This document shows, one piece after another, positions 22,722-28,157 of a stretch of DNA of 35,742 nt. The DNA lies in the NCBI GenBank assembly GCA_019241425.1, contig JAFAXA010000047.1, positions 1 through 35,742 of the forward strand, written 5' to 3'. The stretch's first letter is position 1; each line of letters begins with the position of its first letter. This DNA comes from Acetobacteraceae bacterium. GTDB lineage: Bacteria; Pseudomonadota; Alphaproteobacteria; Acetobacterales; Acetobacteraceae. The position numbers were made by a program, and so were the translations under genes. The notes beneath the pieces are model-generated. The model was given only the letters and a program-made list of their open reading frames with translations. It was not told where the DNA came from and did not search any database.

Positions 22722-22928
22722 ATGACCGATTTGCGACAAGGTACCGGACGGGGCTGGCCGGAGCGCGAGGAAGCCTCCCGCGCGATCGATCGCTGGGTGA
22801 GCGAGGATCTGACACGCCGGCACGGCGACGCGTGCACGGAAGACTTGCCGGATGGCTGGCTGTCGCTGATCGCGGCGGCGGAACGCGGCGGCGAGGGACG
22901 GCGCCGGGAGGCCCGATCGACCGCCTAG
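22722..22928 (+). CDS. Small hypothetical protein, 68 residues
   Basis: A charged 68-residue protein (EEASRAIDRWVSEDLTRR, then LPDGWLSLIAAAE) with an AGGG ribosome site six bases before the ATG. It reads as two short amphipathic helices and no membrane segment. I do not recognise the family. Its TAG stop shares the CTAG palindrome with the stop of the convergent YdcF-like gene. It lies 47 bases after the SGNH hydrolase on the same strand. Confidence 0.55.
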   Translation: MTDLRQGTGRGWPEREEASRAIDRWVSEDLTRRHGDACTEDLPDGWLSLIAAAERGGEGRRREARSTA

Positions 22929-23458
22929 ATCCGGCCTGTCGCACGCAGCCACAGCATCAGCAGGCCGTCCACCAACACCGCCGGGAGTTCGCGCCCGCGC
23001 CAGTACCAGCGCATCAGCAGCGCGTGAGAGGCCGGAAAGGCGGGCGGCGGGCAAGCCTGCGCGGCGACGCCCGCCAAGCGCAGCAGCATCAGGCAGCGCG
23101 GCAGATGGTAGACGCTCGTCGCCGCGAAGACCGGTCCGCAAAGGCCGCGTTCATCACGCATCCGGCGGATCGCCCGCACGGAGGACAGGGTCGACGTTGC
23201 GGTCTCTTCCAGCAGCACGCGGTCGGGGGGAACGCCGAGCGCGGCCAGCAGATCCGCCATCACGGAGGCTTCGGACGCACCGAAGCGGCCGACGGCGCCG
23301 GTGGGGACGTACCACGGGCTCGGCAGCCGGGCGCCGAACGCGGCGGCGGCTTCGACCCGGCGGCGCAAGGTTTGGCTCGGCGTGCCGTCGCGCCGGACGG
23401 CGGCGCCGAAGATCACGATCGCGGGCGCGTCGTCGCCGGCGCGCGGAGGCTCAGCCAT
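22925..23458 (-). CDS. YdcF/SanA/ElyC-like DUF218 domain protein
   Basis: A 177-residue protein with a DUF218 domain: IVIFGAAVRRDGTPSQTLRR (the family's GxxxxxxGxPSxxLxxR), YVPTGAVGRFG and EASVMADLL, VLLEETATSTLSSVRAIRRM, then FAATSVYHLPRCLMLLRLAG. DUF218 proteins are linked to envelope biogenesis in enterobacteria (ElyC, SanA); YdcF binds S-adenosylmethionine. No N-terminal membrane anchor is seen, but a hydrophobic LVDGLLMLWLRATG ends the protein. Its ATG overlaps the end of the MfnB-like/FolB-like gene by eight bases, so the two are translationally coupled. Confidence 0.85.
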   Translation of the reverse strand: MAEPPRAGDDAPAIVIFGAAVRRDGTPSQTLRRRVEAAAAFGARLPSPWYVPTGAVGRFGASEASVMADLLAALGVPPDRVLLEETATSTLSSVRAIRRMRDERGLCGPVFAATSVYHLPRCLMLLRLAGVAAQACPPPAFPASHALLMRWYWRGRELPAVLVDGLLMLWLRATGRI

Positions 23459-24266
23459 GCGCCGGCTGCTCCCCGCGCACTCGCACGATTTCGACGCCCA
23501 CCACGCACGGGCATACGTCGAGCTTCTCGATCCGCACGCTCACCCGCATGGCGCGCGGGTGCCGCAGCAATTGCGCGGCGATGCGCTCCGCCAGACTTTC
23601 GATCACGATCCAGTGGCCGGAGGCGGTGAGCAGCCGGATGGCGTCGAGGATCCCCTTCTCCGGCGATGACGGACCGCCATCCGGGAGGGCGAGGATGAGG
23701 GCGTCCGGCTCGAGTTCCAGGAGCCGCGGCACGTCCGGCGCTTCGAACGGGCCGCACAGGCCGGCGGCGAGACGGGCGGCGGCGCAGGCGCGAACGAAGC
23801 GGCCGATCGTCGCGACCGGCAGGCGCTCCGGGCTGCGCCCGCGGCTCAGATCCAGCCGCGCCCCGGCGAACCCGGCGGCGGCGCAGGCGCCGAGCCAGTC
23901 GGCAGGGTCCGCTTCGCCGGTGCCGATCGCCGCGTGGACGCTGCCGGGCGGAAGCTCCGCCGCGATCCGGCGACAGGTCGCCGCGGTCTCCGCGCCGTCG
24001 CTCACCGGAAGGATCACGTAATCGGCACCCTGCGCGAGCGCCTGGCGCGCGGCGTCGATCAGGGCGGCGACCGTCGGCATCGGCGGGATCGCAGCGCCCA
24101 GCGGACACCGCCCGCCGATTGCTTCGGCGATCGGTGCCACCCCTTCCGGGGAGGCCGCCTCGACGCCGTCCGCCCCGGCGGCATGCGCCGCGCGCGCCGC
24201 CTCGCGGCTGGCCACGCGGACGATCAGGCGGGTCAAGCGGGAACTCTGCGGCCCATGCGAAACCAT
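23451..24266 (-). CDS. MfnB-like domain fused to a C-terminal FolB (dihydroneopterin aldolase-like) half domain
   Basis: 271 residues. Residues ~10-200 look like the DUF556/MfnB TIM barrel ((5-formylfuran-4-yl)methyl phosphate synthase): LIVRVASREAARAAHAAGAD, QGADYVILPV, FAGARLDLSRG and LAAGLCGPFEAPDVPRLLEL align with the family's landmarks in order. The Schiff-base Lys region (family VKNPKEG) reads EAASPEG, and other family lysines (KVG, MLDTAxK) are also replaced. Residues ~201-262 (GILDAIRLLTASGHWIVIES, LAERIAAQLLRHPRAM, VSVRIEKLDV, VVGVEI) match the second half of dihydroneopterin aldolase, keeping its Glu (IES) and Lys (RIEK); the first half with the catalytic Tyr is absent. Start: ATG at 24266. 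Divergent from paoA-like, coupled to the YdcF-like gene. Both domain calls are by eye. Catalysis is doubtful. Confidence 0.6.
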   Translation of the reverse strand: MVSHGPQSSRLTRLIVRVASREAARAAHAAGADGVEAASPEGVAPIAEAIGGRCPLGAAIPPMPTVAALIDAARQALAQGADYVILPVSDGAETAATCRRIAAELPPGSVHAAIGTGEADPADWLGACAAAGFAGARLDLSRGRSPERLPVATIGRFVRACAAARLAAGLCGPFEAPDVPRLLELEPDALILALPDGGPSSPEKGILDAIRLLTASGHWIVIESLAERIAAQLLRHPRAMRVSVRIEKLDVCPCVVGVEIVRVRGEQPAHG

Positions 24267-24400
24267 GGCATGGGGAGGTTCGGCGCTCCACCGCCCCGGG
24301 GCGTGGTGGTGGACGGGAACATTCGGCAGAGGCTTGCGCTTACACGCGGCGCGGCCAATTCGGACCGCGTGCGGTGGCTGAACTTTCGGGAAGGCGGATC

Positions 24401-24916
24401 GTGGGAACAGAAGCAAGCGCGGCCGGCGTTTTCTCGGCGGCGGTCCGTCCGGTCACGCTGTCCGTCAACGGCGCAGATCGCGAACTCAGGATCGCGCCGT
24501 GGACGACCTTGCTCGACGGGTTGCGCGAGTATCTCGGCCTGACCGGAACCAAGAAGGGCTGCGACCACGGACAGTGCGGCGCTTGCACGGTTCTCGTCGA
24601 TGGCGTGCGCATCAATTCCTGCCTCACGCTTGCCGTGATGCACGAGGGCGCGACCATACGAACGATCGAGGGTATCGGCGCGGAGGGTGCGCTGCATCCG
24701 TTGCAGCAGGCATTCATCGATCATGACGCCTTTCAATGCGGCTACTGTACGCCCGGCCAGATCTGTTCGGCGACGGGGCTGATCGCGGAGGGCCGCGCCC
24801 GAACGCCGGAGGAGATCCGCGAGCTGATGAGCGGCAATCTCTGTCGCTGCGGCGCTTATCCGAACATCGTCGCCGCGATCGAACATGCGATGCGGGTCGC
24901 GGAGACGGCGCCATGA
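24401..24916 (+). CDS. paoA: 2Fe-2S subunit of PaoABC/YagTSR-type molybdenum aldehyde oxidoreductase
   Basis: A 171-residue iron-sulfur subunit of a xanthine-oxidase-family enzyme. The first cluster is held by Cys54, 59, 62 and 74 ([17 protein letters not shown] ... NSC), the second by Cys113, 116, 148 and 150 ([18 protein letters not shown]). It passes electrons from the Mo site to FAD. GTG at 24401 has AAGGCGG upstream and gives a short leader without the twin-arginine signal of E. coli PaoA, so the enzyme may be cytosolic. The stop overlaps the next ATG by four bases. Gene symbol is by similarity. Confidence 0.88.
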
Positions 24917-25929
24917 ACCGGTTCGAATACGCGCGGGCGAGCGACGTCGCCGAGGCGGTGCGCGCGCGCGCCGCCGATGCCTCGGCGCGCTTCATCGCCG
25001 GCGGCACCAACCTCATCGATCTGATGAAGGAGAACGTCGCCCGGCCGACGCGGCTGATCGACATCAACCACCTGCCGCTGCGGGGCATCGAGGACACCGA
25101 CGCCGGCGGCGTGCGGATTGGCGCGCTCGCGACCAACACGGCGGTTGCCTATGACGCGCGGATCGAGGCGCGTTATCCACTGCTGTCGAGCGCGATCCTC
25201 GCCGGCGCGTCGCCGCAGCTTCGCAACGCCGCGACGACCGGCGGCAATCTGCTGCAACGGACGCGGTGCTACTATTTCTATGACACGGGCACGCCGTGCA
25301 ACAAGCGCGAGCCGGGAACGGGCTGTCCGGCGATCGCGGGCGTCAACCGCATTCACGCCATTCTCGGCGCGAGCGAGAATTGCATCGCGACGCATCCCTC
25401 CGACATGTGCGTGGCGCTGGCCGCTTTGGCGGCGACGGTGCGAGTCACCGGTCCGTCCGGCGAGCGGGAGATCGCCTTCGCCGATTTTCACCGGCTGCCG
25501 GGCGACACGCCGGAGCGCGACACCAACCTCGGCGAAGACGAGTTGATTACCGCGATCGACCTGCCGCCGGAGGGTTTTGCCTCGAACTACTCCTATCTGA
25601 AACTGCGCGACCGGCTTTCCTACGCGTTCGCGCTGGTGTCGGTGGCGGCCGCGCTCACCTTCGATGGCGACACCATCCGCGAGGCGCGGCTCGCGCTCGG
25701 CGGCGTCGCGCACAAGCCGTGGCGCGACACGGCGGCGGAGGCGGCGCTCGCCGGCAAGCCGGCGAACCGCGCGACCTTCGAGACGGCGGCGGCGGCGTTG
25801 CTCGCCGACGCGCGCGGCTATTCCGGCAATGCGTTCAAGATCGAGCTGGCGCGACGGGCGATTGTGCGCGCGCTCTCGCAAGCGGCGGCGGGAACGCCGC
25901 AAGTGCAAACCGACAAGCGGGTGCGATGA
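24913..25929 (+). CDS. paoB: FAD-binding subunit (with 4Fe-4S motif) of PaoABC/YagTSR-type oxidoreductase
   Basis: A 338-residue FAD subunit. [16 protein letters not shown] and [15 protein letters not shown] are the FAD-binding loops of the family. The insertion [19 protein letters not shown] with TGCPA, and later SENC, supplies Cys119, 129, 138 and 157, the extra 4Fe-4S cluster known from PaoB but absent from most xanthine dehydrogenases. ATG at 24913 and the stop at 25929 overlap the neighbouring genes by four bases each. This places the enzyme in the PaoABC subgroup rather than xanthine or CO dehydrogenases. Confidence 0.9.
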
Positions 25930-28157
25930 GCATGACCTATCTCGGCAAGGCGGTTTCCCGCGTCGACGGACCGGCGAAGGTGACGGGCGCGGCCCGCTAT
26001 GCAGGCGAGTTTCCGGTGCCGGAACTGACCTATGGCGTCGTCGTCTCCAGCACGATCGCGCGCGGCAAAATCACGCGGATCGACAGCGCGGCGGCGCTCG
26101 GCGTTCCTGGCGTCGTGCAGGTGTTCACGCACGAGAACCGGCCGCACACCGCCTATCTGAACCGGAGCTGGCGGGACGAGGTGGCGCCGCCCGGCGCGCC
26201 GTTCCGGCCGCTCTACGACGCCGAGATCCATTTCAGCGCGCAGCCGGTGGCGCTGGTGGTCGCGGAGGATTTCGAGACGGCGCGCTATGCGGCCTCGCTG
26301 GTGCGGGTGGAGTACGAGCAGGGGCCGCACACGACCGATCTCGAACGGGAGCGCGGCACGGCGTATGTGCCGCCGAAGAAGCGGAACGGCATCGCGCCGC
26401 CGCCGGACCCGCGCGGCAACGCGGTCGAAGCGCTGGCGGCGGCGCCGCGCAAGATCGCCCGCCAGTACGTGTCGCCGTTCGAGCACCACAATCCGATGGA
26501 GCCGTTCGCAACAACCGTTCTCTGGCAGGACGCCGGACGGCTCACCGTGTTCGACAAGACGCAGGGCGTCCAGAACGTGCAGTCCTACATCACGAGCGTG
26601 TTCGGCCTGAAGGCGGCCAACGTGCAGGTGATCTCGCCCTTTGTCGGCGGCGCGTTCGGGTCGGGCTTGCGGCCGCAATATCAGGTGTTCCTGGCCGTCA
26701 TGGCGGCGACCGAACTGGAGCGTTCGGTGCGAGTGACCTTGACGCGCCAGCAGATGTTCAGCTTCAGCTATCGGCCCAACACCATTCAGGCGATCTCGCT
26801 CGGCGCGCGGCCGGACGGCAAGCTGCTCGCGCTCACGCATGAGGCGATCGGCAACACCTCGCAGCACGAGGACTACCAGGAAACCGTCGTCAACTGGTCC
26901 GGCCTGTTATACGGGGCAGAGAACGCGAGTTTCATCTACAAGCTGGTCAAGACCGATTGGGCGTCGCCCGCCGACATGCGGGCGCCGGGCGCGACGCTCG
27001 GCGTGTTCGCGATCGAGACCGCGATCGACGAGCTGGCCTACGAGTTGTCGCTCGATCCGCTGGCGCTGCGGCTCGCCAACTACACGGAGCGCGACGAGAA
27101 CGACGGCAAGCCGTTCACCAGCAAGGAGCTGCGCGCCTGCTACCAGCAGGGCGCCGAACGGTTCGGCTGGTCGAAGCGCAACCCGGCGCCGCGTTCGATG
27201 ACGGAGGGGCGTGAGTTGATCGGCTGGGGCATGGCGACCGGCGCCTGGGAGGCGCTGCACATGAAGGCGGCGGCGCGCGCCACGTTGCGGGCCGGTCCGA
27301 TGCTCGAAGTCGCGAGCGCGACCGCCGATATCGGCACCGGCACCTACACCATCATGGCGCAGATCGCGGCGGAAACGCTCGGCGTGCCGATCGAGGCGGT
27401 GTCGGTGAAGCTCGGTGACTCATCCTTGCCGAAATCGCCGATCGAGGGCGGCTCGTGGACCGCGGCCTCGATCGGCGCGGCGGTGCAGGCGGCGTGTGAG
27501 ACGGTGCGCGGCAAGCTGTTCAAGCTGGCGCGCGGCCTCGAAAACTCGCCGCTGGCGAATGCCGATATCGAGCATGTCGAGTTCGCGGACGGCACGATCC
27601 GGCTGCCCGGCGATCCGTCGCGCTCGGTGCCGATCGACCGGGCGCTGGCGGCGGCCGGCACGGAGGCGCTCGAAGCCGAAGAAACGGTCGGGCCGGGCTT
27701 GATCAGCTCCAGGCGCTTCTCCCGCAACACGCATTCGGCGGTGTTTGCGGAAGTGCGGGTGGATGAGGAGCTTGGCATCGCGCGCGTGACCCGCGTCGTC
27801 AACGCCGTCGCGGCCGGGCGCATCCTGAATCTCAAGACCGGCGGCAGCCAGGTGATGGGCGGCGTCGTCATGGGCATCGGCATGGCGCTGCACGAGGAAA
27901 CGATGCCGGATCATGCACTCGGCCGTTTCATGAACCACAATCTCGCCGAGTACCACATCCCGGTTCACGCCGACATTCCAGCGGCGATCGAGGTGATCTT
28001 CGTGGAAGAGCACGATCCCGAGGTCAGCCCGCTCGGCGTCAAGGGCCTGGGTGAGATCGGCATCGTCGGCACGGCGGCGGCGATCGGCAATGCGATCTAT
28101 CACGCGACCGGCAAGCGGGTGCGTGACCTGCCGATCACGATCGACAAGCTGCTGTAA
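25926..28157 (+). CDS. paoC: Molybdopterin-binding catalytic subunit of PaoABC/YagTSR-type oxidoreductase
   Basis: A 743-residue catalytic subunit. It starts [20 protein letters not shown], the family's usual N-terminus. Cofactor and substrate loops follow: [86 protein letters not shown], and finally [12 protein letters not shown] with the catalytic Glu710. All expected residues are present, so it should be active on aromatic or other aldehydes, as known for PaoABC; the substrate here is not known. In E. coli the cofactor is MCD, inserted by PaoD; neither an XdhC/PaoD nor a MocA gene is adjacent. The next gene starts 18 bases on. Confidence 0.92.

Follow-up and report, generated by a model that had tools for sequence, protein, structure and literature searches.

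A degenerate MfnB-FolB fusion gene in an Acetobacteraceae genome, probably the non-catalytic remnant of a bifunctional enzyme

The window, meaning the whole analyzed stretch of 35,742 nucleotides (contig JAFAXA010000047.1, assembly GCA_019241425.1), originates from an Acetobacteraceae MAG of 350 contigs and 90% completeness. On its minus strand, at 23451..24266, a degenerate MfnB-FolB fusion gene was identified by translation, Pfam, NCBIfam and codon signature, with the start ATG at 24266, the stop codon at 23451-23453 and a product of 271 amino acids, termed P0001. The length of the open frame was discarded as coding evidence, because at 69% G+C 122 of 200 random 2.5-kb sequences of the same composition held a frame of at least 333 codons. 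Codon usage reached 0.271 per codon, compared to 0.16-0.37 for correctly framed neighbours, and clearly beat the other five frames; each quarter of the frame, in both halves, showed the codon statistics of a normal gene of the contig. Given this neighbour-like codon usage and the homology of both halves, we therefore regard P0001 as the product of a real coding gene. A DUF218 (YdcF/ElyC-like) gene, detected by Pfam at 22925..23458 on the same strand, has an ATG overlapping the end of the P0001 gene (ATGGCTGA), a candidate arrangement in which both genes are probably co-translated. Neither mfnE nor the flavoprotein gene, the usual neighbours of live fusions (those with all catalytic residues), was seen among the open reading frames of the window. 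No consistent synteny emerged when the window was compared with fusion loci, the sole match being a CoxM-like gene near Aurantimonas-type fusions. The window carries CoxS/CoxM/CoxL-type molybdenum hydroxylase genes at 24400-28157 (plus strand), divergent from P0001; in Aurantimonas and Fulvimarina (L089, L097, L100), a CoxM with 60% identity is encoded 3-5 kb downstream of the live fusion, which may be chance.

Residues ~10-196 of P0001 (23679..24239, minus strand) correspond to an MfnB-like (beta-alpha)8 barrel, as judged by PF04476, alignment, AF2 and Foldseek. The PF04476 (4-HFC-P synthase) profile matched residues 37-190 with 31.5 bits, above the cut-off of 22.4. An AF2 model predicted from 35 input sequences contained all eight barrel strands at a mean pLDDT of 83, with the barrel mostly at high confidence. 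Using this model in Foldseek, 4rc1/4u9p were matched with a target TM of 0.62-0.68, MJ1099 ranking third among many barrels, so that the predicted structure is a TIM barrel as in MfnB. The fold and the above-cut-off Pfam match are common to P0001 and MfnB (MJ1099, PDB 4u9p/4rc1; Orf22, the MfnB homologue of Methylorubrum, PMC8141765). Unlike MfnB, P0001 lacks Lys27, Lys85 and Lys155 (barrel residues are numbered by mapping onto MJ1099), of which Lys27 is the Schiff-base residue (PMC6604932); the loop following strand 2 is deleted and barrel helix 8 is replaced. Aligned to intact fusions, Lys27 was found changed to Ala, Lys85 to Ile (codon at 24012..24014, minus strand) and Asp25 to Glu, while Lys155 was deleted. 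An MfnB-like barrel devoid of its catalytic lysines, as proposed in the original prediction, was hence recovered. With a mean identity of 33%, it diverged further than any other barrel in the family set compared.

The C-terminal half of FolB, dihydroneopterin aldolase, follows at residues ~205-262 (23481..23654, minus strand; PF02152, alignment, AF2) and consists of two helices and a beta hairpin, predicted as helices 202-215 and 219-234 and strands 241-251 and 254-263. The PF02152 profile matched residues 208-260 over its positions 55-112 of 113 with 25 bits, under the cut-off of 31.8, and phmmer matched solved FolB over the same half. In common with FolB (e.g. 3v9o), P0001 retains the equivalents of Glu74 and Lys98 (E223, K248); in contrast to it, the N-terminal half including Tyr53 is gone, leaving neither a complete domain nor the full Tyr53/Glu74/Lys98 set. 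That only the half without the catalytic Tyr is present had been anticipated from the sequence. An apparent match to FolB Glu21 ("fE21=E") was rejected as an alignment artefact within the deletion. Compared to relatives, a single in-frame block of ~100 residues is absent between barrel strand 8 and FolB helix 1, comprising barrel alpha-8, the linker and the FolB N-terminal half, with the junction located at 23652..23687 (minus strand) by alignment and junction codons. In the AF2 model barrel helix 8 is substituted by FolB helix 1, a placement of low confidence (46-58 in ten-residue blocks). The remaining FolB tail is slightly more divergent (54% mean identity to relatives versus 58-71% among relatives). 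Every other family fusion locus that was checked has a complete FolB, save one frameshifted assembly and one stretch of undetermined sequence. The frameshift at L048/L116 (G345), which separates the MfnB part from the FolB part, may be a real split or a sequencing error.

Surveying 397 genomes of the same family, PF04476 was detected in 23, all but one of which carried MfnB-linker-FolB fusions, usually of 355-395 amino acids, or remnants thereof; G034 alone departs from this, its MfnB being unfused. When named genomes were scanned with the fusion alignment, at least 528 relatives were obtained among at least 596 candidate stretches, the best 80 of which include Rhodopila, Methylocystis, Aurantimonas, Aureimonas, Roseiarcus and Bartonella; the contig scan with P0001 alone as query, in contrast, gave no matches. 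Fusions of ~370 amino acids are widespread in Hyphomicrobiales and Acetobacteraceae. The fusion had been considered suggestive in itself; it is real, but standard in the lineage rather than special to this genome, and as such ordinary. P0001 contains both domains in the same order and the fusion-specific motif ExPDxPRLL, as do the live fusions of Rhodopila, Methylocystis and Aurantimonas, with identity to an aligned live fusion reaching 39%; those fusions, unlike P0001, possess all catalytic residues, are accompanied by Ftr in the genome and usually have mfnE as a neighbour. Hyphomicrobium-type genomes carry mfnB next to folB as two separate genes, and Azospirillum has folB ~2-3 kb upstream of mfnB, which suggests a possible origin of the fusion. 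Separate adjacent or overlapping mfnB and folB genes at seven loci (L102, L119, L120, L121, L123, L130, L149) likely represent the pre-fusion state.

All 73 live fusions and all 22 lone MfnB proteins carried Lys27, Lys85 and Lys155. In 36 other fusions, Lys27 was lost or the site wholly reworked ("dead barrel"); one Bartonella MAG has a Lys aligned at position 27 without the rest of the site, and two truncated gene models do not contain the region. The residues replacing Lys27 vary by lineage (A, T, Q, I, E, S, P, G). Of 32 genomes with lysine-bearing fusions, 29 carried Ftr (PF01913), the formyltransferase of the methylofuran pathway, the three misses being MAGs of 86-88% completeness; Ftr was found in none of 17 dead-barrel genomes, i.e., Bartonella, Roseiarcus, several Acetobacteraceae and the P0001 genome (16 of 16 lacking it without the latter). 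Fae was absent from all six dead-barrel genomes of the first set, to which this comparison was confined. Both Ftr and Fae were sought in the P0001 genome and neither was found; as this MAG is only 90% complete, the case for their absence leans in part on what is seen in relatives. The suspected link to methanofuran and methanopterin genes was confirmed. Contrasts were visible even within genera: in g139 lysines and Ftr are both present in G434 and both missing in G238 and G422, and likewise in g132 for G190 and G269 versus G131 and G300. Using a tree of the FolB part only, the dead state required 12 changes on the best tree, at least 5 of them forced by supported branches, while P0001 itself, with an end branch of 1.5, had no supported position. 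A Fisher test over 35 rows gave 3e-10, a value which ignores relatedness; with relatedness taken into account, the pair test was left with only 3 supported pairs, which all pointed the same way. Genomes with two copies (G770, G834, G611) were left out of the co-occurrence test. In these three genomes of the Bartonella family one full-scoring and one dead fusion are present (G770:C17, G834:C40, G611:C23; L186, L189, L191), the dead copies retaining the whole FolB site, which fits redundancy and not pathway loss. An MfnE-like kinase gene still lies near the dead fusions L194, L195, L198, L201, L203 and L204, apparently an intermediate stage of pathway loss.

The FolB part of the dead-barrel fusions was retained. 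Glu21, Tyr53, Glu74 and Lys98 were kept in 36 of 36, the fusion was the only FolB in 14 of 17 genomes, and folK was present in all 15 genomes tested, as it is in the P0001 genome; in Roseiarcus, folP-folK is found ~1 kb from the dead fusion. Because the FolB residues are intact, the fusion is usually the sole FolB and folK is present, dead-barrel fusions very probably act as folate aldolases. P0001 shares with the dead-barrel fusions (Bartonella, Roseiarcus, G238, G422, G131, G130, G300) the lost lysines and the absence of Ftr, but differs from them in lacking the complete FolB active site. Its genome contains a second, unfused FolB on contig C90, beside an SDR gene and uvrC. The same site harbours the lone FolB of many relatives and is also occupied in G131 and G422, which likewise have two FolB.

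Dead barrels of relatives are still under purifying selection. Dead barrels gave Nei-Gojobori dN/dS values of 0.07-0.33; the listed live barrels ranged over 0.04-0.17 and the FolB part over ~0.00-0.20, to be read with several pairs saturated in dS and some (e.g. G238/G422) possibly spanning time before lysine loss. Two usable pairs diverged after lysine loss, namely L139/L150 (dS 0.25, ratio 0.12) and G770b/G525 (dS 1.04, ratio 0.09). Comparing alignment columns, ExPDxPRLL was near-invariant in live and dead fusions and not conserved in lone MfnB. Its E, P, D, P, R and first L were 94-100% conserved in dead barrels; Arg185 was found in 100% of both live and dead fusions, while the commonest residue in lone MfnB was Ala (32%). 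P0001 keeps the motif as EAPDVPRLL (residues 175-183; 23718..23744, minus strand). Since the motif is conserved in fusions and not in lone MfnB, a contact with FolB is suggested. The dead fusion of B. apihabitans was predicted with a pLDDT of 90.5, and its model matches both MfnB and FolB structures.

Taken together, P0001 is probably (at roughly 0.7) a vestigial, non-catalytic remnant of a bifunctional MfnB-FolB enzyme which has lost both activities. In methylotrophic Alphaproteobacteria the barrel of the live fusion would supply methylofuran synthesis with its furan precursor, and folate and methanopterin would both draw on 6-hydroxymethyl-dihydropterin made by the FolB domain, two roles which we infer from the residues, the co-occurrence and the assignment of Orf22 as MfnB (PMC8141765). 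Once the formaldehyde/H4MPT pathway was lost in a lineage, the barrel lysines would erode; the eroded fusion would persist since the cell usually has no other FolB domain, a relation observed as a correlation. In the P0001 genome the second, uvrC-linked FolB would therefore render the fused FolB dispensable as well, and the in-frame deletion would then have taken the linker together with the final helix of the barrel and the Tyr-bearing half of FolB. The deletion is seen in the alignment, while the order of events is what we infer. The remaining protein is predicted to fold as a complete barrel, closed by the helix recruited from FolB, and would catalyze neither reaction. The term "non-catalytic" of the original prediction is accordingly well supported, the lysines and the Tyr-bearing half of FolB being gone. 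The main uncertainty of reading P0001 as a relic is a non-catalytic scaffold role which it may have retained: its codon signature is normal, none of its indels against relatives shifts the frame and the motif is intact, and therefore it may still be under selection.

An alternative which we consider unlikely is that of a selected pseudoenzyme, in which the dead barrel serves as a structural or regulatory partner of FolB, docked via ExPDxPRLL and stabilizing or tuning the aldolase, with the P0001 barrel retained either for an independent role or as a modulator of the remaining FolB. The low dN/dS of dead barrels, including the pairs L139/L150 and G770b/G525, the conservation of the motif in dead barrels and not in lone MfnB, the confident model of the B. 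apihabitans fusion and the motif and predicted fold kept by P0001 are all in agreement with it; nevertheless, half of the FolB part to be served is gone from P0001, the C90 FolB is unfused, and the constraint on dead barrels could simply protect the folding of a sole FolB. A broader reading, somewhat less likely than not, is that in Alphaproteobacteria the MfnB half has repeatedly become a dead but selected partner of an essential folate aldolase, docked via ExPDxPRLL, with P0001 as a barrel outliving its FolB partner and perhaps acting alone.

We were also aware that a MAG of 350 contigs might have lost ~300 bases of a true gene with a full FolB half, as every dead-barrel relative carries the full FolB active site. 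Such an assembly or binning artefact is very improbable: the join is exactly in frame and puts a helix in place of barrel helix 8, the FolB tail has substitutions of its own (54% versus 58-71% identity), and assembly collapse rarely acts so inside a unique gene. Even less credit is given to a barrel enzyme with new chemistry or a pterin-binding protein, both raised originally, although the barrel is intact in the prediction and the equivalents of FolB Glu74 and Lys98 remain. No new conserved polar set takes the place of the lysines, and since dead relatives replace Lys27 differently in each lineage, no new common active site is indicated; a pterin pocket would lack half of its fold, which makes binding unlikely.

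Taken by itself, the gene of P0001 represents a known fusion in decayed form; new here is the pattern around the fusion, namely barrel death with pathway loss while FolB is kept. In the literature searched, which was of limited coverage, no description was found of dead MfnB-FolB fusions or of a domain that repeatedly dies yet is retained and constrained, while the fusion as such may have been mentioned before. The pattern ties what becomes of a fused enzyme to whether its lineage has lost a one-carbon pathway: the dead half would persist by virtue of its linkage to an essential folate enzyme. It would also explain why folate aldolases of Bartonella and other Ftr-less genomes carry a methanogen-type barrel. 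Annotating dead-barrel fusions as furan-phosphate synthases would be wrong. Offering many independent replicates of active-site loss under selection, these fusions make a pseudoenzyme-domain role directly testable.

The second FolB of the P0001 genome (G000:C90, 9227-9649; L181) was only ~30% identical to the FolB of relatives at the uvrC/SDR site, compared to mostly 68-80% for the adjoining UvrC in family relatives. The C90 FolB is thus unusually fast-evolving, possibly with a changed role.
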